This document shows positions 2,784 through 16,479 of a DNA stretch of 64,000 nucleotides, piece after piece. Where the stretch lies: NCBI GenBank assembly GCA_017380575.1, contig JAFODS010000069.1:1-64000 (forward strand). Reading direction: 5' to 3'. The DNA is from Clostridia bacterium. Lineage in GTDB: Bacteria > Bacillota > Clostridia > Oscillospirales > Acutalibacteraceae. A program made the translations under genes and the position numbers. The number at the start of each line of letters is the position of its first letter. Position 1 is the stretch's first letter. The notes under the pieces were generated by a model that was given only the letters and a program-made list of their open reading frames with translations, was not told the DNA's origin and did not search any database.

Positions 2784-4457
2784 TTAGAACAAGCCTGAGA
2801 TTACGCCGTTTTCATCAACGTCGATTTTCTCGGCAGCCGGCACTCTCGGGAGACCCGGCATTGTCATAATGTCACCTGTAAGCACAACTATGAAACCTGC
2901 ACCTGCTGACACCTTGACATTTTTGATTGTTACTGTGAAGTTCTCGGGTGCGCCAAGCTTTGTCGGGTCATCTGAGAAGCTGTACTGTGTTTTTGCAACA
3001 CAGATCGGAAGATTTTCGAAGCCGAGCTCTTTGAGAGTTTCAATCTGCTTCTTCGCTGCCGGAAGAATACTGATACCGTTACCGCCGTAAACGCGTTTAA
3101 CAATTGCTTCGATTTTGTCCTCGATTGAGCCGTCAAGCTCATAAGAGAATGAAAAATCATTTTCTTTTTCGCAAAGTCCAACAACCTCTCTTGCGAGGTC
3201 CTCGCCACCCTTACCACCTTCAGCCCATACGTTTGAAAGAACAACGTTTACGCCGAGGTCTTTACATTTATCAATGATGAATTCAATTTCCTTGTCTGTG
3301 TCTGTCGGGAATCTGTTAACAGCGACAACACAGGGAAGCTTGTATACATTTGTGATATTTGAAACATGACGAAGAAGGTTAGGAACACCCTTTTCAAGTG
3401 CTTCAATGTTTTCTGAGCCAAGCTCTGTCTTAGCAAGACCGCCGTGCATCTTAAGAGCACGTACAGTTGCAACCATAACAACTGCTGAGGGTTTAAGACC
3501 TGCATAACGGCACTTGATATCAAGGAACTTCTCAGCACCGAGGTCAGCACCGAAGCCTGCTTCTGTAACTGCATAATCGCCAAGGCGCATTGCCATTCTT
3601 GTTGCGATAACAGAGTTACAGCCGTGTGCGATATTTGCAAACGGGCCACCGTGAACAAATGCGGGTGTGCCTTCAAGAGTCTGAACAAGGTTCGGCTTGA
3701 TTGCATCCTTGAGAAGAGCAGTCATAGCACCGACAGCCTTGAGGTCGCCTGCTGTTACGGGTTTACCGTCATATGAATAGCCGACAATGATTCTGCCGAG
3801 TCTTTCCTTAAGGTCTGTGATAGAAGTTGCAAGGCAGAAAACAGCCATAATTTCAGATGCAACAGTAATGTCAAATCCGTCCTCACGCGGAACACCGTTA
3901 ACCTTACCGCCGAGACCGTCAACAACGTTACGAAGCTGTCTGTCATTCATATCAACGCAACGCTTCCAGGTGATACGTCTTGTATCAATACCGAGAGCAT
4001 TGCCCTGATGGATATGGTTATCAAGCATAGCAGCAAGAAGGTTGTTTGCCGCACCGATTGCATGGAAGTCACCTGTGAAATGAAGGTTGATGTCTTCCAT
4101 CGGAACAACCTGAGCATATCCGCCACCTGCTGCACCGCCCTTGACACCGAAAACAGGTCCGAGTGACGGTTCACGAAGAGCAACCATTACGTTCTTGCCG
4201 ATACGGCGGAGACCGTCGGCAAGACCGATTGTTGTTGTTGTTTTACCCTCACCTGCAGGTGTGGGAGTGATAGCTGTTACAAGGATGAGCTTGCCTTCCT
4301 TCTTCTCAGTTTCGTTAAGAAGTGCATAGTCAACCTTTGCCTTATATCTGCCGTACTGCTCGATATATTTATCGTCAATATTGGCAGTTTTTGCGATTTC
4401 TGTAATGGGTTTCATTTCACACTGCTGTGCGATTTCAATATCTGTAAGGTATCCCAT
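2784..4457 (-). CDS. fhs: Formate--tetrahydrofolate ligase
   Basis: Fhs makes 10-formyl-tetrahydrofolate from formate, THF and ATP in the cytoplasm. The 557-residue length is normal. The nucleotide-binding loop [12 protein letters not shown] is at residues 65-76, followed by the family signature [10 protein letters not shown]-x-K-G-G-A-A-G-G-G; the C-terminal [16 protein letters not shown] motif is present. It is the last gene of the purine operon, 16 bases after purL. There it supplies the formyl donor for both PurN and the AICAR formyltransferase, so its position fits a purine role. In acetogens the same enzyme serves the Wood-Ljungdahl pathway; no other pathway gene is in the window. Ribosome site GGAGCGAG precedes the ATG. 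Confidence 0.97.
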
Positions 4458-4472
4458 TTTATCTCGCTCCTC

Positions 4473-7400
4473 TTATTTAAAATACTTAACAGCAGAAGAG
4501 AACATCTGCATATCATATTCGCCGTATACGTTCTTGTAAAGGCCGTAGCCTGTACGCTCAGAGTGAGCCATCTTACCGAATACACGTCCGTCAGGTGAAG
4601 TGATACCTTCGATAGCTGACATTGAGTTGTTCGGGTTGAAGTGAACGTCATCTGTTACATTGCCGTTGAGATCAACATACTGAGTAGCAATCTGACCGTT
4701 TGCGGCAAGCTCCTTGATAAGCTCTTCGCTTGCAAGGAAGCGTCCTTCACCGTGAGAAATCGGCACTGTGTAAATATCGCCTACCTCTGTACCTGCAAGC
4801 CACGGAGACTTGTTAGAAGCAATTCTTGTTCTTACCAATCTTGACTGGTGGCGTGCAATTGTGTTGAATGTAAGAGTCGGGCAATTTTCGTCTGTATCAA
4901 TAATCTTACCGTAAGGTACAAGACCAAGCTTGATAAGAGCCTGGAAGCCGTTACAGATACCGCACATAAGACCGTCACGGTTTTCAAGAAGGTCTGTTAC
5001 GCCATCCTTGATAGCAGCGTTTCTGAAGAATGCTGTGATGAACTTACCTGAACCGTCGGGCTCGTCACCGCCAGAGAAGCCACCCGGAATGAAGATCATC
5101 TGAGCTGACTTGATCTTCTCTGCGAAGTTATCAACGCTTCTTGCGATACCGTCAGCTGAAAGGTTGTTGATTACGATGATTTCAGCATCTGCACCTGCAT
5201 CGCGCATAACCTTTGCTGTATCGAATTCGCAGTTTGTGCCCGGGAATACGGGGATAAGAACCTTCGGCTGTGCAACCTTGATTGCGGGAGCCTTGCGTTC
5301 TGTTGCGCTGAATGAGAATGTCTCGATTTCCTTGTTATCAGCAGGAATGTTACAGCTGAATACGCTTTCAAGCTTATCTTCGTAAATCTTGAGAACTTCG
5401 TCTGCACAAAGCTTTTCTTCGCCGTAAGCGAATGCTTTTTCCTCTGTAACGTAACCGATGAGTGTACCGATTTCAGTATCGTCGCTGAGTTCAAGAAGGA
5501 ATGAACCGTAGCAATAGCCGAAGATATCTTCAAGGCTGAGGCCTGCATCGAATGCGAAGCCGAAACCGTTACCGAAAGCCATCTTCATAACAGCTTCTGC
5601 AACACCGCCGAATGTCGGAGTGTAAGCTGAAAGCACCTTGCCTGCTCTCATAAGCTCTACAACCTTATCAAAGAGAGCGAGAAGAGATTCTGTCTTCGGG
5701 AGTTTATTTTCATCATATTCAGGCTTAACAAGAACAACCTTGCTGCCTGCTTTTTTGAATTCGTTTGTAATTATATTGTCAACTTTTTCAGTTGTGATTG
5801 CGAAAGAAACAAGTGTCGGAGGAACATCAAGATGCTCGAAAGTACCGCTCATTGAGTCCTTACCGCCGATAGCTGCAACACCAAGGTTCTTCTGTGCCTC
5901 AAATGCACCGAGAAGAGCTGAAAGAGGCTTGCCCCAACGCTTTGCATCCTTGTTCGGTCTTTCAAAGTATTCCTGGAATGTAAGGTAAACATCCTCGTAC
6001 TTTGCACCTGCAGCAACAAGCTTTGCAACTGATTCAACAACTGCAAGATATGCACCGTGATACGGGCTCTTTTCTGTAATGAACGGATTATAACCCCATG
6101 TCATAACTGAGCAATCGTTTGTATGCTTCTTTTCAACAGATACCTTGTGTACCATTGCCTGGATCGGAGTGAGCTGATTCTTACCGCCGAAAGGCATAAG
6201 AACCGTACCTGCACCGATTGTTGAGTCAAAGCGTTCTGAAAGACCTCTCTTTGAGCAGACATTAAGGTCATCTGCAAGAGCCTTGAAGCCTTCTGAGAAA
6301 TTATCAGCAATTTCTTTATCGTAGTTTTCTACGCCTGCAGCTTCAATTGTTATATGCTTTTCAGCACCGTTTGAGTTAAGGAACTCACGGCTGATGTTTA
6401 CAATTGTGTTGCCGTTCCAGAACATTCTGAGTCTGGGTTCAGCCTTAACCTCTGCAACAACTGTTGCTTCAAGGTTTTCTTCGTTAGCAATCTTGAGGAA
6501 TGCTTCAACATTTTCCTTTTCGATTACAACAGCCATTCTCTCCTGAGATTCGCTGATTGCAAGCTCAGTTCCGTCAAGACCGTCGTACTTTTTCGGAACT
6601 GCATTGAGGTTGATTTCAAGACCGTCAGCAAGCTCACCGATAGCAACTGATACACCGCCTGCACCGAAGTCGTTACAACGCTTGATCATACGGCAAGCAT
6701 CACCGTTACGGAACATACGCTGAAGCTTTCTTTCTTCGGGAGCATTACCCTTCTGAACCTCAGCACCACATGACTCAAGAGAATCGAGTGTATGTGACTT
6801 TGAAGAACCTGTTGCACCGCCGCAACCGTCACGGCCTGTTCTGCCGCCAAGGAGGATAACGATATCACCGTCTTCGGGACGCTCACGTCTTACGTTCTCC
6901 TGCGGAGCTGCAGCAACAACTGCACCGATTTCCATACGCTTTGCAGCGTAGCCGTCGTGATAAAGCTCGTCAACCATACCTGTTGCAAGACCGATCTGAT
7001 TACCGTATGAAGAGTAGCCTGCAGCAGCAGTTGTAACAATCTTTCTCTGCGGAAGCTTACCGTCCATTGTTTCGTTAACGGGCTTCAACGGGTCAGCAGC
7101 ACCTGTTACACGCATTGCAGCGTAAACGTATGAACGACCTGAAAGCGGGTCACGGATTGCACCACCGATACAAGTAGCAGCACCGCCGAAGGGCTCAATT
7201 TCTGTCGGGTGGTTGTGTGTTTCATTCTTGAAGAGAAGGAGCCACGGCTCTTTTACACCGTCAACCTCGATCTCGATTTTAACTGTACAAGCGTTGATTT
7301 CCTCAGACTCGTCAAGCTTATCAAGCTTACCGATTTTCTTAAGATACTTAGCAGCAAGTGTACCGATATCCATAAGATTCTGCGGCTTTGTTCTGCCGAG

Positions 7401-8162
7401 GAATTCACGTGTTTTAAGATAATCGTCATATGCAGCCTGAAGAAGCTCGTCTTCAAATGTTACCTTATCAATTGTTGTAAGGAATGTTGTATGACGGCAA
7501 TGGTCAGACCAATATGTATCGATCATTCTGATTTCTGTAATTGTCGGGTTACGGTTTTCACTCTTGAAATATGCCTGACAGAAAGCGATGTCGTCATTGT
7601 CCATTGCAAGGCCGTAATCCTTTACGAAAGCTGCAAGACCGTCCTTATCAAGGTCATTGAAGCCGTCAAGAGTTTCAACAGTTGTGGGAATTTCATACTC
7701 AACCTTGAGAGTTTCAACCTTCTCAAGTGATGCTTCACGTGATTCAACGGGGTTGATTACGTATTTCTTAATCTCATCAAGTTCGTCAGCTGAAAGATTA
7801 CCGTAGAGAAGGTAAACCTTTGCTGCACTTACTGTCGGACGCTCGCCCTTTGAGATGATCTGGATACACTGAGCAGCAGAGTCAGCTCTCTGATCAAACT
7901 GACCGGGAAGGAACTCAACTGCAAAAACTGTTGCATCAGTCTGCGGAAGCTCGTCATAGATAATATCGAGCTGAGGCTCTGAGAAAACAGTTTTCTTTGA
8001 ATAATTGAACAAGTCCTCTTCGATGTTTTCAACGTCATAACGGTTGAGAACACGAACTTCTTCAAGTGATTTTATCTGAAGGATGTGTCTGATATCGTAA
8101 CGAAGGCTTCTTGCCTCGTTATCAAGACCTTTTTTCTTTTCAACATAGATGCGATATACCAT
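4473..8162 (-). CDS. purL: Phosphoribosylformylglycinamidine synthase, single-chain form
   Basis: PurL converts FGAR, glutamine and ATP to FGAM, the fourth step of purine synthesis. At 1229 residues it is the large single-chain enzyme with its own glutaminase, not the PurS-PurQ-PurL complex of Bacillus. The N-terminal part is the PurS-like linker; two AIR-synthase-type halves follow (ETHNHPTEIEPFGGAATCIG near 320, and a second around 690-900). From about residue 975 comes a class I glutamine amidotransferase domain with PVFPGTNCEFD, the nucleophile cysteine in MCGICNGFQ and the His/Glu pair in PISHGEGRF. The ATG at 8162 follows the purD TAA directly, with GGAGG upstream. This clostridial clade is distinct from the proteobacterial PurL. 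Confidence 0.96.
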   Translation of the reverse strand: MVYRIYVEKKKGLDNEARSLRYDIRHILQIKSLEEVRVLNRYDVENIEEDLFNYSKKTVFSEPQLDIIYDELPQTDATVFAVEFLPGQFDQRADSAAQCIQIISKGERPTVSAAKVYLLYGNLSADELDEIKKYVINPVESREASLEKVETLKVEYEIPTTVETLDGFNDLDKDGLAAFVKDYGLAMDNDDIAFCQAYFKSENRNPTITEIRMIDTYWSDHCRHTTFLTTIDKVTFEDELLQAAYDDYLKTREFLGRTKPQNLMDIGTLAAKYLKKIGKLDKLDESEEINACTVKIEIEVDGVKEPWLLLFKNETHNHPTEIEPFGGAATCIGGAIRDPLSGRSYVYAAMRVTGAADPLKPVNETMDGKLPQRKIVTTAAAGYSSYGNQIGLATGMVDELYHDGYAAKRMEIGAVVAAAPQENVRRERPEDGDIVILLGGRTGRDGCGGATGSSKSHTLDSLESCGAEVQKGNAPEERKLQRMFRNGDACRMIKRCNDFGAGGVSVAIGELADGLEINLNAVPKKYDGLDGTELAISESQERMAVVIEKENVEAFLKIANEENLEATVVAEVKAEPRLRMFWNGNTIVNISREFLNSNGAEKHITIEAAGVENYDKEIADNFSEGFKALADDLNVCSKRGLSERFDSTIGAGTVLMPFGGKNQLTPIQAMVHKVSVEKKHTNDCSVMTWGYNPFITEKSPYHGAYLAVVESVAKLVAAGAKYEDVYLTFQEYFERPNKDAKRWGKPLSALLGAFEAQKNLGVAAIGGKDSMSGTFEHLDVPPTLVSFAITTEKVDNIITNEFKKAGSKVVLVKPEYDENKLPKTESLLALFDKVVELMRAGKVLSAYTPTFGGVAEAVMKMAFGNGFGFAFDAGLSLEDIFGYCYGSFLLELSDDTEIGTLIGYVTEEKAFAYGEEKLCADEVLKIYEDKLESVFSCNIPADNKEIETFSFSATERKAPAIKVAQPKVLIPVFPGTNCEFDTAKVMRDAGADAEIIVINNLSADGIARSVDNFAEKIKSAQMIFIPGGFSGGDEPDGSGKFITAFFRNAAIKDGVTDLLENRDGLMCGICNGFQALIKLGLVPYGKIIDTDENCPTLTFNTIARHQSRLVRTRIASNKSPWLAGTEVGDIYTVPISHGEGRFLASEELIKELAANGQIATQYVDLNGNVTDDVHFNPNNSMSAIEGITSPDGRVFGKMAHSERTGYGLYKNVYGEYDMQMFSSAVKYFK

Positions 8163-9434
8163 TTATTTAACCTCCGCATTCAAAGCTTTACGACCGATAT
8201 CTCTTCGGCAGAAGCCGTTTTCAAAACCAACCTTATCGGTAAGTTCATATGCATTTTTAATTGCTGTTTCAAGGTTTTCTGCAACTGCTGTTACGCCGAG
8301 CACTCTTCCGCCTGCGCTGAGGAGCTTTCCGTCTTCAAGCTTTGCACCTGCAACGAAAATCTCACTTTCTGCATCAGTTTCGGGAAGTGTAAGCTCAAAT
8401 CCGCTCTGATACTTAACGGGATAACCCTTTGAAGCAAGGATTACGCAACAAGCTGATTTATTGCTGAATTTTACCTCTGTTTTATCAAGCTCACCTCTTG
8501 CAGTAGCCTTCATAACTGTGAAAAGGTCACTTTCAAGAAGAGGAAGAACAACCTGAGTTTCAGGATCACCGAAACGGCAGTTATATTCGATAACCTTCGG
8601 GCCGTCCGGAGTAATCATAAGGCCAAAGTAAAGGCAACCTCTGAACTCCCTGCCCTCTGCCTTCATTGCACGGATTGTCGGAAGGAAAATCTTTTCCATA
8701 CATTCCTCTGCAACAGCATCTGTATAATAGGGATTCGGAGCAACTGTACCCATACCGCCTGTGTTAAGACCTTCGTCATTGTCAAAAGCTCTCTTATGGT
8801 CCATTGAAGAAATCATCGGCTTTACAACGTTACCGTCTGTAAATGCGAGAACTGAAACTTCGGGACCTGTGAGGAATTCTTCAACAACAACGTTACTTCC
8901 GCTGTCGCCGAACACCTTATCTTCCATCATAGAGTAGATTGCATCCTCAGCCTCGTCACGAGTCTGAGCGATTATAACACCCTTACCGAGAGCAAGACCG
9001 TCAGCCTTGATAACTGTAGGAATCGGAGCTGTTTTGATGTACTTAAGAGCATCCTCCATATTGGTGAATACTTCGTACTTTGCAGTCGGGATATTATACT
9101 TCTTCATAAGATTTTTTGAAAAAACCTTACTGCCTTCGATTATAGCGGCATTTGCCTTGGGGCCGAAGCATTCAATGCCTGCTTCATTAAGTGCATCAAC
9201 TGCACCGAGCACCAACGGATCGTCAGGAGCAACGACAGCAAAATCAATTGCATTTTCTGTTGCAAACTTAACAAGACCGTCAATATCCTTTGCACCTACG
9301 TTTACGCAGGTTGCATCTTCTGCCATACCGCCGTTTCCGGGAAGTGCAAAGATTTCGTCGATTTCATTGCTTAATTTAAGCTTTTTTATAATAGCATGTT
9401 CACGACCGCCTGAGCCGACAACCATTACTTTCAT
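8163..9434 (-). CDS. purD: Phosphoribosylamine--glycine ligase (GAR synthetase)
   Basis: PurD joins 5-phosphoribosylamine and glycine using ATP. The 423 residues show the N-terminal pre-ATP-grasp fold starting MKVMVVGSGGREHAI, then FGPKANAAIIEGSK, the ATP-grasp lysine region VIKADGLALGKG (about 141-152), and the metal-binding YNCRFGDPETQVVLPLL. Length is normal. Its stop codon abuts the purL start, and it lies 31 bases after glyA, which makes the glycine that it uses. AAGGAG precedes the ATG. Confidence 0.96.
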   Translation of the reverse strand: MKVMVVGSGGREHAIIKKLKLSNEIDEIFALPGNGGMAEDATCVNVGAKDIDGLVKFATENAIDFAVVAPDDPLVLGAVDALNEAGIECFGPKANAAIIEGSKVFSKNLMKKYNIPTAKYEVFTNMEDALKYIKTAPIPTVIKADGLALGKGVIIAQTRDEAEDAIYSMMEDKVFGDSGSNVVVEEFLTGPEVSVLAFTDGNVVKPMISSMDHKRAFDNDEGLNTGGMGTVAPNPYYTDAVAEECMEKIFLPTIRAMKAEGREFRGCLYFGLMITPDGPKVIEYNCRFGDPETQVVLPLLESDLFTVMKATARGELDKTEVKFSNKSACCVILASKGYPVKYQSGFELTLPETDAESEIFVAGAKLEDGKLLSAGGRVLGVTAVAENLETAIKNAYELTDKVGFENGFCRRDIGRKALNAEVK

Positions 9435-10721: not shown

Positions 10722-11906
10722 TTAATGGTGGAACAATCTCATACCTGTGAATGCCATTGTGATACCGTACTTGTCACAGCACTCGATAACGATGTCATCA
10801 CGGATTGAGCCGCCCGGCTCTGCGATGTATGAAACGCCACTCTTCTTAGCTCTTTCAATGTTGTCGCTGAACGGGAAGAATGCATCAGAACCAACTGAAA
10901 CACCTGTAATTGTAGCAAGGTAAGCTGCCTGCTCCTCATCTGTGAACGGTTCGGGCTGAGTTGTAAAATACTTCTGCCAGTTGCCGTCTGCACAAACATC
11001 TTCTTCGTTCTTGTTGATATAACCGTCGATTACGTTGTCGCGGTTCGGTCTTGAAACGTCATCTCTGAACGGAAGGTTAAGAACCTTATCGCTCTGGCGA
11101 AGATGCCAGATATCTGCCTTATTACCTGCAAGACGTGTACAGTGAATTCTTGACTGCTGACCTGCGCCAACACCGATTGCCTGACCGTCCTTTGCATAGC
11201 AGACTGAGTTTGACTGAGTATACTTAAGTGTGATAAGAGCGATTATAAGGTCACGCTTTGCTTCTTCAGGGAACTCCTTGTTAGCTGTAACAACGTTCTG
11301 AAGCTGTGACTCATCAATCTTATAATCGTTTCTGCCCTGCTCGAATGTGATACCGTAAACAGTCTTCTGCTCGATCGGCTGCGGAACATAATCAGGGTCA
11401 ATCTTTACGATATTATAGTTACCGTTTCTCTTTGTTTTAAGAATTTCAAGTGCTTCATCTGTATAACCCGGAGCGATAACACCGTCAGAAACTTCACGCT
11501 TGATGATAAGAGCTGTTGTCTTGTCGCAAACGTCTGAAAGTGCAATCCAGTCACCGAAAGATGACATACGGTCTGTACCTCTTGCACGAGCATATGCACA
11601 AGCGAGAGGAGATTCGTCAAGGCCTTCGATATCGTCTACGAAGCAAGCCTTCTTAAGCTTTTCGGGAAGCGGATTGCCAACTGCTGCACAAGTCGGGCTT
11701 ACGTGCTTGAATGATGCTGCTGCAGGCATACCGAGAGCTTCTTTAAGCTCCTTAACAAGCTGCCATGAGTTGAAAGCATCAAGGAAATTGATGAAACCGG
11801 GTCTGCCCGCAAGAATTTCGATCGGAAGCTCTGTTCCGTCGTTCATAAAGATCTTTGCGGGTTTCTGATTCGGGTTACAACCGTATTTAAGTTCAAATTC
11901 TTTCAT
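10722..11906 (-). CDS. Stand-alone AICAR formyltransferase (PurH C-terminal-type domain)
   Basis: This 394-residue protein corresponds to the formyltransferase half of bifunctional PurH, without the IMP cyclohydrolase half. It transfers a formyl group from 10-formyl-THF to AICAR to give FAICAR. Near residue 66 it has [13 protein letters not shown], matching the catalytic Lys-His motif (KHVNP-type) of the family. [24 protein letters not shown] later in the chain is the usual folate/AICAR-site stretch, and [19 protein letters not shown] is also typical. A separate cyclohydrolase, PurO, is encoded immediately upstream, so the two steps are split between two polypeptides. It lies 20 bases after purO and 20 bases before glyA. 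Confidence 0.93.
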
Positions 11907-11926: not shown

Positions 11927-12646
11927 TTATTTATTCTTGTTGATAAGACGGTTCTCTTCTGCACCTGTTTCAAGGTCGATGTAACGAACGTAAAGAGAAA
12001 TCTTATTATCTTCGTTGAGGTTTGTCCAGAGTGTGTTTGTGAATTCGTCGATATCGTCGGGAATCATAACTCTTTCGGGTTCACCCTGGAATGTCGGAAT
12101 AGGATTACCGTCACATACATATGTGTGGATAAAGTGACCGAGACCTGCCTTTGAGGGGTACATAAAGAGGTAACGTGCACAGTCTGAACCCTCTTCGTCA
12201 AGGCTCTTGAGGATGCTCATTTCATATTTGAAATCGTTATTTTCAAACTTGAGCATACCGCTGATTCTCGGTGTGAAGTTCGGTGCATCGGGCTCAAACT
12301 CACGAGTTTTGAGAGCACCGTTGAAGCACTTGCCTTCTTTGATGAATTCGTAAATTGTATCTGTCTGATCACCGTTTGTTACGATGAGCTTATTTTCATG
12401 CTTTCTGATAGCGGCATAAATGATAAGTGAAGGATCTTCAACCTTTGAAGCATCAAACGGCTCTGTGAAAACTGCTCCGTCCTTCTCTGAGAAAATACGG
12501 TTACGGCTGTTTTCGCTTCTGCCCATAATGAAATAAGCAGCAACTGCCTTCTTAGCGTCTGCAGTTTTACCGATAACAATACCTCTGCCTACATATGAAT
12601 TATCGCGGATAAGTTCGCCGATGTCATTAACCTTGTATATGTTCAT
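11927..12646 (-). CDS. purO: IMP cyclohydrolase, PurO type
   Basis: The 239-residue product starting MNIYKVNDIGELIRDN matches the PurO-like IMP cyclohydrolase family, first described in archaea, by YVGRGIVIGKTADAKKAVAAYFIMGRSENSRNRIF (shown here only to name the region, about residues 19-53), followed by KHENKLIVTNGDQTDTIY. It would close the ring of FAICAR to give IMP, the last step of the pathway. It is unrelated in fold to the PurH cyclohydrolase domain. ATG at 12646 is preferred because AAGGTG sits six bases upstream; an in-frame GTG three codons earlier (12655) lies inside that site. It overlaps the end of purN by 20 bases, which suggests translational coupling. Confidence 0.9.
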   Translation of the reverse strand: MNIYKVNDIGELIRDNSYVGRGIVIGKTADAKKAVAAYFIMGRSENSRNRIFSEKDGAVFTEPFDASKVEDPSLIIYAAIRKHENKLIVTNGDQTDTIYEFIKEGKCFNGALKTREFEPDAPNFTPRISGMLKFENNDFKYEMSILKSLDEEGSDCARYLFMYPSKAGLGHFIHTYVCDGNPIPTFQGEPERVMIPDDIDEFTNTLWTNLNEDNKISLYVRYIDLETGAEENRLINKNK

Positions 12647-13265
12647 AATCTTCACCTTTTTCCTTAATTTCTTTTGATACTAATTCTGCCGCTTCAGGCA
12701 GGATATTCCATTCTGCTTCCTGCATAACTCTTTTCTGCAGGGTTTCGGGAGTGTCCTGAGGCTCGATGTAAACTGCTCTTTGGAGAATAATCTGTCCGCC
12801 GTCGGGAATTTCATTTACGAAATGTACTGTTGCACCGGTAACCTTGACACCGTAAGCAAGAGCAGCTTCGTGAACCTTAAGGCCGTAGAAGCCTTCACCG
12901 CAGAAGGAAGGAATCAATGACGGATGAACGTTGATGATTCGCTTCGGGTAACTTGAAGTGAAGCTCTCCGTAAGAATACACATAAAGCCTGCAAGGATTA
13001 TAAGCTCAATTCCGTTTTCTTTAAGAACTGATTTAACCTCTGCTTCAAAAGCTTCTCTTGTATCGTATTCCTTATTATTGATAACTGCAGTTTTTATTCC
13101 TGCGTTTTCAGCTCGTGTCAAAGCGTAAGCTCCAGGCTTGTTGGAGATTACAAGCTCAATTTTACCGCTTTTTATAATGCCGCTTTTTTCGGCATCAATC
13201 AAAGCCTGAAGGTTTGTTCCGCCGCCCGAAACAAGGACAGCAATTTTTGTCGGAGCAGTATTCAT
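12627..13265 (-). CDS. purN: Phosphoribosylglycinamide formyltransferase (GART)
   Basis: PurN formylates GAR with 10-formyl-THF. From the ATG at 13265 (GGGGGAG five bases upstream) the product has 212 residues; an open frame runs 15 codons further upstream but lacks a good ribosome site and would start inside purM. Motifs: LVSGGGTNLQALID at the start, LAGFMCIL, catalytic Asn/His in INVHPSLIPSF and the Asp in GATVHFVNEIPDGGQII. It lies between purM and purO. Confidence 0.95.
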   Translation of the reverse strand: MNTAPTKIAVLVSGGGTNLQALIDAEKSGIIKSGKIELVISNKPGAYALTRAENAGIKTAVINNKEYDTREAFEAEVKSVLKENGIELIILAGFMCILTESFTSSYPKRIINVHPSLIPSFCGEGFYGLKVHEAALAYGVKVTGATVHFVNEIPDGGQIILQRAVYIEPQDTPETLQKRVMQEAEWNILPEAAELVSKEIKEKGEDYEHIQG

Positions 13266-13278
13266 AGCCTCTCCCCCA

Positions 13279-14322
13279 TTATTCAATGATAATCTTCTCG
13301 TCACCTGCAACGATTTCGCCGATTACATAAGCATCTTCGCCGTTTGCCTTGAGAATTTCAAGTGCCTTGTCTGCATCTTCTTTAGCAACAACAACGCTCA
13401 TACCAACACCCATATTGTATGTGTTGAACATATCACGCTCAGGAATGTTGCCTGTCTTTGCGATGAGGTCGAAAATCGGAAGAATACGGATTGAAGCCTT
13501 GTCAATCTTTGCACTGTATCCGTCAGGAAGGCTTCTTGGAATATTCTCGTAGAAACCACCGCCTGTGATATGAGAAACTGACTTAACAGTAACTTCTTCA
13601 AACAAAGCGAGCATAGGCTTAACATAAATCTTTGTGGGAGTAAGAAGTGTTTCGCCAAGTGACTTGCCGCCAAGCTCTTCAAGAGGAGTCTTGATGTCTG
13701 CATTTTCGATATCGAAAACTTTTCTTACGAGTGAGAAGCCGTTTGAGTGAACACCTGATGACGGGAGAGCGATGATAACGTCGCCTTCTTTAACAAGCTT
13801 GTTGTTAACGATCTTATCCTTATCAACAACGCCTACTGAGAAGCCTGCCATATCGTATTCATCAATGGGATAGAAGCCGGGCATTTCAGCTGTTTCACCG
13901 CCGATAAGAGCTGAACCTGACTGAACACAGCCTTCTGCAACACCTGCAACGATGTCTGCGATTCTTTCAGGGAAGTTCTTTCCGCAAGCAATATAGTCAA
14001 GGAAGAACAACGGCTTTGCACCACAGCAGATAACATCGTTAACACACATTGCAACACAGTCAATACCTACTGTGTCGTGCTTGTCCATAAGGAAAGCCAT
14101 CTTAAGCTTTGTGCCGACACCGTCTGTACCGCTTACGAGAACCGGCTTTGAGATACCTGTAAGGTCAAGCTCAAAAAGGCCGCCGAAACCGCCGATGTCA
14201 GATGAAACTGCATTTGTCATTGTTCTTGCGATATGAGCCTTCATAAGCTCAACTGCTTTGTAACCTGCTGTAATGTCAACGCCCGCTGCTGCGTAGCTGT
14301 CTGATTTAGAATTTGTATGCAT
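13279..14322 (-). CDS. purM: Phosphoribosylformylglycinamidine cyclo-ligase (AIR synthetase)
   Basis: PurM closes FGAM to AIR with ATP. With the start at 14322 ([25 protein letters not shown] upstream) it has 347 residues, normal for the family; a longer frame to 14367 overlaps purF and is not favoured. Motifs: [24 protein letters not shown], [24 protein letters not shown] segment and [12 protein letters not shown]. It begins six bases after purF stops. Confidence 0.96.
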
Positions 14323-14327
14323 AATTC

Positions 14328-15752
14328 TTATTCCTTTCCGTTCCAACAATATGTGCAAAGGTCGCATTCGTCAAGTCCGATTGCTTCGATGAGACCTTCA
14401 AGTGACTGAAATTCGAGTGATGAGAAGTGGAACTTCTCGCAGATTTTCTGACGAAGCATCTTTCCGCGTTCTGTTGAAGAATCGCTGTATTCATCAAGAT
14501 ACTTTTCGCCTTCCTCGCCCTCAAGCTCCATAATTGTGCTTCTTGTGATAAGGTCGAGGTCGCTTGTATTACGGGAGAAGTTAAGGTACTTACAGCCGTA
14601 CATAATCGGCGGACAAGCCGAACGCATATGAACTGCCTTTGCTCCGTTTGAATAAAGAAACTCTACAGTTTCACGAAGCTGTGTTCCCCTTACTATTGAG
14701 TCATCAACAAAAAGAAGACTCTTGTCATGAATGAGTTCACAAACCGGAACCTGCTTCATTTTCGCAACCTTTTTTCTGTCGCTCTGTTTGCTTGACATAA
14801 AGCTTCTTGGCCAGGTCGGAGTGTATTTGATAAAAGGTCTTGAGAACGGGATTCTGCTCTTATTTGCATAACCTATTGCGTGCGGTGTTCCCGAATCCGG
14901 CACACCGCTGACGTAATCAACGCCCTCTGCATTGCCGTCTTCCATATCGTGCTTTGCAAGGATTTCACCGTTACGGTATCTCATAACCTCAACGTTGACG
15001 CCTTCGTAAGTTGACGGTGAATAACCGTAATATGACCAGAGAAATGCGCATATACGTTTTTTCTTTCCCGGAACAGCAAGCTGCTTTAGTGAATCGCAGG
15101 TAAACTCTACGATTTCTCCGGGTCCGAGTTCCTTTTCATCGTCATATCCGAGTTTCTGATATGCAAAGGATTCAAACGAAACACAATAGCCGTTTTCATT
15201 CTTTCCGACAAGCACCGGAAGTCTTCCGAGTCTGTCGCGTGCCGCGATAATTGCACCGTCATTCTTAAGAATGAGGATTGATGCTGTGCCGTCGATTACT
15301 TCCTGTGCAAAGTGGATACCTGCAACAAAGTCGCTCTTCTGATTTATAAGTGCCGCAACAAGCTCGGTTGAGTTAACCTTACCGCCTGTCATTGCATTGA
15401 ACTGACCGCCGCTGAAATCAAGGTACTGCTTTATAAGATCATCTGCGTTGTTGATTACACCGACAATACAGATTGCATATGTGCCGAGATTTGAACGTAC
15501 AAGAAGCGGCTGCGGGTCCGAATCGCTAATACAGCCGATTGCGGATTTACCCTTCATTTCCTCGAAAACTTTTTCAAACTTTGTTCTGAACGGTGAGTTT
15601 TCGATGTTATGAATATCTCTTTGTAAACCGATTTCGTCGTCATACGCCGCCATACCGCCGCGACGTGTTCCGAGATGTGAATGGTAGTCTGTTCCGAAGA
15701 ATACGTCATAGACCGCATCTTCCTTACAGGCTGCACCAAAAAAGCCTCCCAT
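14328..15752 (-). CDS. purF: PurF-family amidophosphoribosyltransferase lacking the glutaminase active site
   Basis: The 474-residue protein is homologous to PurF, which makes phosphoribosylamine from PRPP and glutamine. The C-terminal phosphoribosyltransferase half is intact, with the PRPP loop [13 protein letters not shown] at 346-358 and [14 protein letters not shown] before it. The four Fe-S ligand positions known from Bacillus PurF appear conserved: Cys235, Cys387, and Cys466/Cys469 in a C-terminal CTYCWNGK. The N-terminal glutaminase half, however, starts M-G-G-F-F-G, with no cysteine after the initiator Met, and the H-V-R-Y-x-T and H-N-G-N segments are replaced by [13 protein letters not shown] and [17 protein letters not shown] six bases before the ATG fixes the start. 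Homologues of this kind are known in Clostridia and Bacteroidetes. It may use ammonia, or a canonical PurF may exist elsewhere. Confidence 0.88.
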
Positions 15753-15812
15753 TTGGTTACCTCCTATCGTTGAAAGCCGTTCGCAAGGATTTTTGCGAAA
15801 ACGGTGCCGGGT

Positions 15813-16307
15813 TTATTTATTGAATCTTTTCTCTATTTCTGCGTTCTTCTTAAGAACGTTTTCTGATGCTGACTTTCTCTGTGCATCAAGCTTTGCCGCA
15901 ACTTCCTCATCGTTTACTGAAAGAATCTGAAGAGCAAGGAGAGCTGCATTTGCCGCACCGTCGATTGCTACTGTTGCAACAGGGATACCTGCAGGCATCT
16001 GAACTGTTGAAAGAAGAGCATCAAGACCGTCAAGTGTTGAAGCCTTTACGGGAATACCGATAACGGGAAGAGTTGTGTTTGCTGCGATTGCACCTGCAAG
16101 GTGTGCAGCCTTACCTGCTGCTGCGATGATAGCACCAAAGCCGTTAGCACGTGCGTTTGCTGAAAACTCCTTTGCTTCAACGGGTGTTCTGTGTGCTGAA
16201 AATACGTGAACCTCGTAAGGAACACCAAACTCATCAAGAGTTGTCATTGCTTTTTCAACTACGGGCAAATCGCTGTCGCTACCCATAATAATTCCGATTT
16301 TTTTCAT
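15813..16307 (-). CDS. purE: N5-carboxyaminoimidazole ribonucleotide mutase (PurE)
   Basis: PurE makes CAIR, the sixth purine step. The 164-residue protein has IIMGSDSDLP at residues 6-15, VFSAHRTP ending at 42 and AAAGKAAHLAGAIAANT, which resembles class I (N5-CAIR mutase) enzymes that work with PurK. No purK is in the window, so either it lies elsewhere or this enzyme uses AIR and CO2 directly. It is the first gene of the operon, starting eight bases after an AGGAGG that abuts the riboswitch terminator. Confidence 0.95.
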   Translation of the reverse strand: MKKIGIIMGSDSDLPVVEKAMTTLDEFGVPYEVHVFSAHRTPVEAKEFSANARANGFGAIIAAAGKAAHLAGAIAANTTLPVIGIPVKASTLDGLDALLSTVQMPAGIPVATVAIDGAANAALLALQILSVNDEEVAAKLDAQRKSASENVLKKNAEIEKRFNK

Positions 16308-16320
16308 TCTGAAATCCTCC

Positions 16321-16363
16321 TAAAAATAAGCAGGACAGTCCTATATTATCAACAGGACTGCCC
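16321..16363 (-). terminator. Riboswitch-controlled transcription terminator before purE
   Basis: On the minus strand GGGCAGTCCT (16354-16363) pairs with AGGACTGTCC (16333-16342) and is followed by TGCTTATTTTTA. The left arm reuses the conserved CUGGGCA of the ZTP aptamer, so ligand binding and hairpin formation are mutually exclusive: the typical layout of a ligand-induced antitermination switch. Confidence 0.85.
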
Positions 16364-16437
16364 AGACGGTCGGCTGTAAAATTCCTTTTGCTCCCCTGTG
16401 GTTAATCCACAATTCCGTCAGTCACAAAAGGCTTTTT
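16355..16437 (-). ncRNA. ZTP (pfl) riboswitch aptamer
   Basis: The leader of purE carries the conserved parts of the ZTP riboswitch. P1 is formed by CCTTTTG (16426-16432) with CAAAAGG (16384-16390). Between them are the GTGACTGACGG segment, a GTGG/CCAC hairpin and GGGGAGC. The 3' subdomain GCCGACCGTCTGGGCA ends with the hallmark C-C-G-Y-C-U-G-G-G-C-A (16359-16369). ZTP/ZMP accumulates when 10-formyl-THF is short and the riboswitch then turns on folate and purine genes. The operon downstream contains glyA, fhs and both formyltransferase genes, exactly the expected targets. Confidence 0.92.
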
Positions 16438-16450
16438 ATATTATGGTTTT

Positions 16451-16479
16451 ATTATATCAAAAACCGCCGTCAAGGTCAA
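16451..16479 (-). promoter_or_regulatory. Sigma-A promoter of the purine operon
   Basis: TTGACC (16474-16479) and TATAAT (16451-16456) on the minus strand are 17 bases apart, placing the transcript start just before the ZTP aptamer. The -35 box sits in an imperfect palindrome GGTTAAGTTGACC. Confidence 0.85.

Follow-up and report, generated by a model that had tools for sequence, protein, structure and literature searches.

PurF (EC 2.4.2.14; structures 1ao0/1gph from Bacillus subtilis and 1ecb from Escherichia coli) is the closest described system to the protein considered here. In this enzyme Arg26 has an assigned role, Arg72, Asn102 and Asp127 belong to the glutamine site, and the PRPP-site and Fe-S ligand positions are likewise known. 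Ammonia-dependent members of the amidotransferase families, such as NAD synthetase, illustrate that a synthase can work without a glutaminase, the glutaminase domain being wholly absent from them.

As stated in the excerpted parts of the sources cited, Cys1 mutants of PurF keep ammonia activity (PMC3261824), the yeast PurF-type enzyme also forms phosphoribosylamine (PRA) from PRPP and free NH3, with both activities implicated in vivo (PMC12017579), and, PurF apart, direct formation of PRA in the cell has been demonstrated only for TrpD (PMC3485032). Crenarchaea possess PurF' (Brown et al., PMC3261824), a PurF homologue that lies near purine genes and is devoid of the N-terminal Cys; in the excerpted text, each crenarchaeon studied has a true PurF besides it, and its action as an ammonia-dependent PRPP aminotransferase is put forward as the authors' (untested) suggestion. 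Among the titles and abstract openings that our searches of an open-access library listed, we found no bacterial group of Cys-less PurFs.

Here we describe a PurF-type protein (hereafter X) encoded in a 64,000-nucleotide stretch of a Clostridia bacterium contig (JAFODS010000069.1; the whole stretch is hereafter the window), together with its relatives. In many gut Clostridia such a PurF relative, its glutaminase half stripped of catalytic parts yet strongly conserved, appears to open the purine pathway.

Gene and operon

Read from the window sequence, X (474 aa) is encoded on the minus strand, 15752 to 14331, with its stop codon at 14330-14328; the plus strand has no open frame over this span. 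The span 14328..15752 given in the initial annotation stands, and the strand, absent there, proves to be minus. Directly ahead of the ATG at 15752 lies a strong Shine-Dalgarno sequence (AGGAGGT, 15765-15759) that fixes the start, and the ATG is followed by Gly-Gly rather than Cys, as had been proposed. The open frame counts 494 codons, 20 of which stand before the ATG, and none of these 20 is an in-frame ATG, GTG or TTG; an upstream start giving X a (processed) cysteine, the objection foreseen in that annotation, is rejected on this count. The features of the locus are the following:

14331..15752, minus strand: X, PurF-type protein of 474 aa, stop codon 14330-14328 (sequence, profile and alignment)
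15759..15765, minus strand: Shine-Dalgarno AGGAGGT of X (direct reading)
15063..15752, minus strand: X residues 1-230, Ntn/GATase-type domain without nucleophile or glutamine site (alignment)
14679..14717, minus strand: X residues 346-358, PRPP loop (alignment)
14331..15050, minus strand: stretch of X with the four Fe-S-type cysteines C235, C387, C466 and C469 (invariant in 117/117 X)
16353..16435, minus strand: ZTP/ZMP riboswitch RF01750, 70.7 bits (gathering 39), ahead of purE-X
16451..16479, minus strand: promoter-like TTGACC-17-TATAAT (consensus match only)
16333..16363, minus strand: terminator-like stem with U-rich tail, putative riboswitch expression platform
15813..16307, minus strand: purE
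13279..14367, minus strand: purM (listed ORF)
12627..13310, minus strand: purN
11927..12655, minus strand: IMP cyclohydrolase, PF07826, PurO-like
10722..11906, minus strand: stand-alone AICAR transformylase, NF005492
9466..10701, minus strand: glyA
8163..9434, minus strand: purD
4473..8162, minus strand: purL with its own glutaminase domain (PF13507 at 4479-5270)

In agreement with the first description, X takes the second place in a purine operon, after purE, within a tight unit of the order purE - X - purM - purN - purO-like IMP cyclohydrolase - stand-alone AICAR transformylase - glyA - purD - purL. By direct reading, the true start of purM is likely the ATG at 14322, 5 nt past the X stop. 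The next ORF beyond purL (2784-4457) is one that we take to be a formate-tetrahydrofolate ligase, and pyr genes (named by reading) lie upstream of the purine unit. The leader of the purE-X unit is made up of the promoter-like site, the ZTP riboswitch and then the terminator-like stem; the same riboswitch precedes purE and X in two of the eight loci scanned (L135 and L139), both from genomes in which X is the sole PurF-type match (hereafter X-only). In the window, the PurO-like IMP cyclohydrolase (11927-12655) and the stand-alone AICAR transformylase (10722-11906), both on the minus strand, occur in place of a fused PurH.

Residues lost and kept

For the residue survey, 117 full-length X genes were aligned with 12 canonical PurFs (Cys1 being entered by hand in the B. 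subtilis row). Mature position 1, occupied by Cys in 12/12 canonical PurFs, is Gly in 116 of the X proteins, Ser in one and Cys in none; the start residue is a Met right before this Gly/Ser in 113/117 genes and V or L in the other four, which would correspond to GTG/TTG-type starts. Throughout the 117 proteins Arg26 has become Leu, Arg72-Tyr73 is deleted, and His101 and Asn102 are substituted; Asp127 is lost from 116, the single Asp standing in a column where the alignment is loose. Substitutions common to 117 full-length relatives (with the one exception at Asp127) are not due to chance. In the window protein, both segments that had been reported as replaced (HVRYxT and HNGNLxN in PurF) indeed consist of other sequence, with an 8-column gap where B. 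subtilis PurF has Arg72-Tyr73.

The PRPP-facing residues Lys305, Arg311, Arg321, Lys328, Asp345-Ser347 and Val349-Thr352 are kept in 117/117, Ile348 and Gln318 in 115/117, and the PRPP loop of the window protein is intact. Within the flexible loop, Asn306 is replaced by Tyr in every protein and Tyr308 (B. subtilis numbering) by Pro in 116/117, so that the loop chemistry differs. The cysteines C235, C387, C466 and C469 align with C236, C382, C437 and C440 of Bacillus, each position being Cys in 117/117, and may ligate an Fe-S cluster. The additional Cys463 to which the initial annotation drew attention is present and aligns with Bacillus C434 (presumably not an Fe-S ligand), but it is Cys in just 62% of 80 dereplicated members. 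Aligning the group with Bacillus PurF, a check suggested at the outset, found the nucleophile and glutamine site gone and, as noted there, the PRPP loop and residues and the four Fe-S-type cysteines retained.

Family and spread

The closest solved proteins to X are PurFs, that of B. subtilis first, and its routine annotation in database records is 'amidophosphoribosyltransferase'. Against TIGR01134 (the NCBIfam purF model) the window protein scores 158 bits, the cut-off being 350, and scans of 31 aligned members yielded no narrower NCBIfam or Pfam family. In a quick tree with 12 canonical PurFs, X makes up one side of a branch with an SH-aLRT of 100.

X was recovered from 28 of 60 relatives (window genome and one fragment included) and from 109 of 391 further Clostridia genomes (completeness floor 95%; only fragments of it in two of the 109). 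Further members were met on a plasmid of Peptoclostridium acidaminophilum (54%) and, at 47.5-48.7%, in records of Parabacteroides, Phocaeicola and Bacteroides. A contig labelled Coriobacteriaceae (L084) bears a Clostridia-like X (65%), through either transfer or mis-binning, and the archaeal match (L093) is an ordinary Cys-type canonical PurF. Among 46 relatives on viral contigs the best reached 38% identity over a short segment, and none was X-like by identity. A record labelled Bacteriophage sp. (MT836108.1, L191) has the order purE-purC-X-purF-purM-purN with an X near-identical to that of the Clostridia genome G360; this DNA is probably bacterial rather than phage.

X in place of PurF across genomes

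X fills the purF slot of many operons and is the sole PurF-type PRTase found in many genomes, where it appears to have replaced PurF. It was the sole PurF-type match in 25 of the 109 X-bearing Clostridia genomes; the other 84 had more than one match, and canonical PurF was confirmed in all eight of those tested. The X-only set (n = 32) comprised these 25 genomes and seven of the relatives. The purF model passed its cut-off in 0/32 of them versus 8/8 genomes chosen as having PurF, the weaker matches in X-only genomes being as long as GlmS-, AsnB- and similar Ntn proteins or other PRTases, and a search of the seven relatives with canonical PurF as query gave the same result (no PurF).

Of the 32 X-only genomes, 30 have PurD and 29 the glutaminase domain of PurL, whereas in genomes with neither X nor PurF PurD exceeded the cut-off in 2/24 (Fisher p about 3e-11); one such genome, G092, has a partial PurD match below cut-off. 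The contrast set (n = 24, no X-query match) consisted of 20 genomes listed out of 53 and four of six relatives (two less complete ones omitted), and most genomes in the comparison are drafts. MAG incompleteness is unlikely as a general cause of the X-only status, given that PurF-less genomes without X seldom have PurD and that g100 (3/3 genomes) and g178 (2/2) are X-only throughout the sample. It may explain single cases in the genera g69, g146 and g159, where other X-bearing genomes have two matches.

The best single case of replacement is G247, a single contig (99% complete) with the order purE-purC-X-purM-purN-purB-AICARft-purD-purL (purB and purL domains confirmed), in which the purF model found no PurF. 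X was also the sole match in 8 of 10 genomes from named records, the Lachnospiraceae bacteria RM5 and NC2004 having a second, PurF-like one. On the gene tree the X-only label changes at least nine times along the starred branches (rows of unknown status counted as not X-only), which suggests that PurF was probably lost repeatedly. In G241 PurD, PurL and PurF were not found, and the contig reads N beyond about 56,000 in the stretch examined; in G283 X lies in two pieces with no other match. G056, which carries the single Ser2 member, has no purine operon in the 19 kb read, and PurD and PurL were not found in it; X can thus persist without de novo purines. That many genomes retain PurD and PurL with X as the only PurF-type PRTase found suggests that X is itself probably the PRA synthase.

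Canonical PurF in the source assembly

The initial annotation had raised the possibility of a canonical PurF elsewhere in the genome, and the assembly (88.8% complete, 79 contigs) does hold one, on the 4.3-kb contig C31 (L005), and a further X gene lies on contig C45 (7.7 kb, L004); C31, however, looks mis-binned. Its tetranucleotide similarity to the window is 0.584 (minimum for equal-length window pieces 0.643) and that of C45 is 0.689 (minimum 0.726); on the other side, C31 is level with the nearest of 18 foreign loci (0.58), and C45 is nearer than any of 12 foreign loci (highest 0.62). The purF, carA, X and purC genes of the two contigs lie at codon-usage distances of 0.27-0.43 from the window, versus 0.09-0.19 for window genes, the exceptions being pyrG (0.19) and a C45 ORF labelled 'acs' (0.18). 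The assembly contains two pyrG genes (88% identity), contig C20 (L203) holds a second copy of the carB-purC block found on C45 (89% and 94%), and the pyrG-purF-carA order of C31 recurs in G012. Judging from duplicates and composition, C31 and C45 may stem from a related organism, and the window species may rely on X alone. PurF was not found in six close relatives (X at 89-96% identity) that are only 68-84% complete.

Gene neighbourhoods and the search for a glutaminase

Gene neighbourhoods were surveyed on the same strand within 4 kb of 126 distinct X genes, some of them fragments. Ninety-two have a purine gene nearby, with purE or purC upstream in 86 and purM downstream in 79, and canonical purF is close to eight. 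The remaining 34 comprise some on short loci and others that are solitary with room on both sides. X stands outside purine operons in several Lachnospiraceae, Bacteroidales and Peptoclostridium records, where it may have a second role. Downstream of X in Peptoclostridium and three Bacteroidales (L187, L188, L189, L190) comes pepT (then gcvT in the Bacteroidales), a link kept across two phyla with purine genes absent.

Such loci bear on the idea that X is a regulator, a PRPP sensor or the holder of another PRPP-dependent job, with PRA supplied by canonical PurF or by the non-enzymatic reaction of ribose-5-phosphate with ammonia. This would accommodate the adjacency to pepT instead of pur genes in Bacteroidales and Peptoclostridium, the persistence of X in G056 (PurD and PurL not found) and the genomes that have X and PurF together (eight confirmed); for Salmonella, PRA has been described to form without an enzyme when ammonia is high (excerpted text of PMC3485032). 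It fits poorly with the presence of X in the purF slot of operons in PurF-less genomes, which mostly keep PurD only when X is there, and with the retention of the PRPP-site residues examined, bar loop positions 306 and 308. We thus deem this role unlikely.

Alternatively, X could be the synthase but be fed ammonia by a separate glutaminase in trans, which might be a partner of its own or, in genomes with both proteins, canonical PurF. The eight of 126 X genes within 4 kb of a same-strand canonical purF speak for this idea, and so does a GlsA-type glutaminase in three of the 32 X-only genomes (G247, the cleanest of them, G390 and G100). It was not found in the other 29, none of the 32 has a PurF above cut-off, and no glutaminase was identified in the X operons, where the neighbours are mostly pur genes. 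The five operon ORFs that were scanned turned out to be two formate/nitrite transporters (G241 and G022), a pentapeptide-repeat protein and two without Pfam match, and among 10 genes scanned beside solitary X genes no glutaminase family was matched (all belong to unrelated families). A glutaminase in trans therefore seems quite improbable.

X-purF tandems were seen in L140 and L117 (G360), L012, L109, L111, L112 and L191, and possibly point to a mixed complex. The transporter genes (PF01226) are placed between purM and purN in X operons (L200:7665-8270 in G241 and L202:7468-8067 in G022), and similar ORFs lie near X in L046, L073, L102 and L106; our guess is that they serve formate supply.

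Constraint on the N-terminal domain

Across six close relatives (15 pairs) the dN/dS of residues 1-230 is 0.018-0.068 and that of the rest of X 0.022-0.069, ratios that are rough, synonymous sites being near saturation in several pairs and saturated in one. The identity of N-domain and PRT-domain is 0.62/0.72 in X versus 0.51/0.61 in canonical PurF. In 80 dereplicated X proteins 50 N-domain columns are conserved at >=97%, and 26 of these differ from the canonical consensus, the X-specific ones including D22, Y23, R45, H48, R56, D77 and N127. A degenerate relic is rejected on dN/dS and conservation, in keeping with the earlier remark that the gene is 'hardly a relic'. From its sequence, the N-terminal pocket looks rebuilt rather than merely broken, and the domain, under strong constraint, presumably has a part in shaping the oligomer, the route of the ammonia or a new site for a ligand. 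That the Ntn domain houses a re-invented active site (the residues above plus H26, all invariant) using another amide or amine donor would agree with these 26 columns and with a constraint like that of an active canonical domain, but we regard it as highly improbable, the N-terminal nucleophile being absent, Cys74 being Cys in only 105/117 and H24 being Asn in 3/117 (Bacteroidales).

Proposed function

We propose, with a probability of roughly 0.62, that X is a functional PRA synthase that performs the purF step without glutamine hydrolysis. Taken separately, its identity as a PRA synthase is likely, and free ammonia is the more probable nitrogen donor, as the glutaminase half lacks its catalytic parts. 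As no glutaminase was identified in X operons and a GlsA-type one occurs in only 3/32 X-only genomes, the simplest mechanism would be PRPP + NH3 -> PRA. PRPP would bind the C-terminal domain, the flexible loop (KYTPTWxRSF) would close over the PRPP site, free ammonia would enter (by a putative channel) and attack C1 of PRPP, and the PRA would pass to PurD. Among the options named in the initial annotation (ammonia, a partner glutaminase or another PRPP-dependent role) the first is favoured, and the other two are weakened by the X-only genomes and by the fact that no linked glutaminase was found among the neighbours identified.

A broader reading, which we offer tentatively, is that X constitutes a second, ammonia-fed class of PRA synthases, widespread in gut Clostridia and with members in Bacteroidales, that took over from PurF repeatedly, its former glutaminase domain having been rebuilt into a conserved site (for ligand sensing or ammonia capture), not merely inactivated.

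Implications and relation to known systems

If the proposed function is true, the committed purine step of many gut bacteria uses free ammonia instead of glutamine, nucleotide synthesis is tied directly to gut ammonia, and the idea formulated for archaeal PurF' becomes testable in bacteria. The routine 'amidophosphoribosyltransferase' annotation would be corrected (affecting metabolic models of X-bearing bacteria), and the X step would be expected to escape glutamine analogues directed against the glutaminase of PurF.

X shares with PurF the two-domain architecture, the PRPP loop, the Lys305/Arg311-type residues, the four Bacillus-type Fe-S cysteines and the operon position of purF. It differs in having no Cys1, Arg26, Arg72 or Asn102 in any member (and Asp127 in 1/117), in an extra segment around 406-431, in an altered flexible loop and in a score (158 bits) below the TIGR01134 cut-off of 350. 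Unlike ammonia-dependent NAD synthetase, X keeps its dead glutaminase domain, and keeps it strongly conserved. We would file it as a variant of the PurF-type PRA synthase and not as a glutamine amidotransferase. With crenarchaeal PurF', as portrayed in the excerpted text of PMC3261824, X has in common the missing Cys1 and the location beside purine genes; there a true PurF accompanies the Cys-less homologue in each crenarchaeon studied, and X is the only PurF-type match in many genomes.
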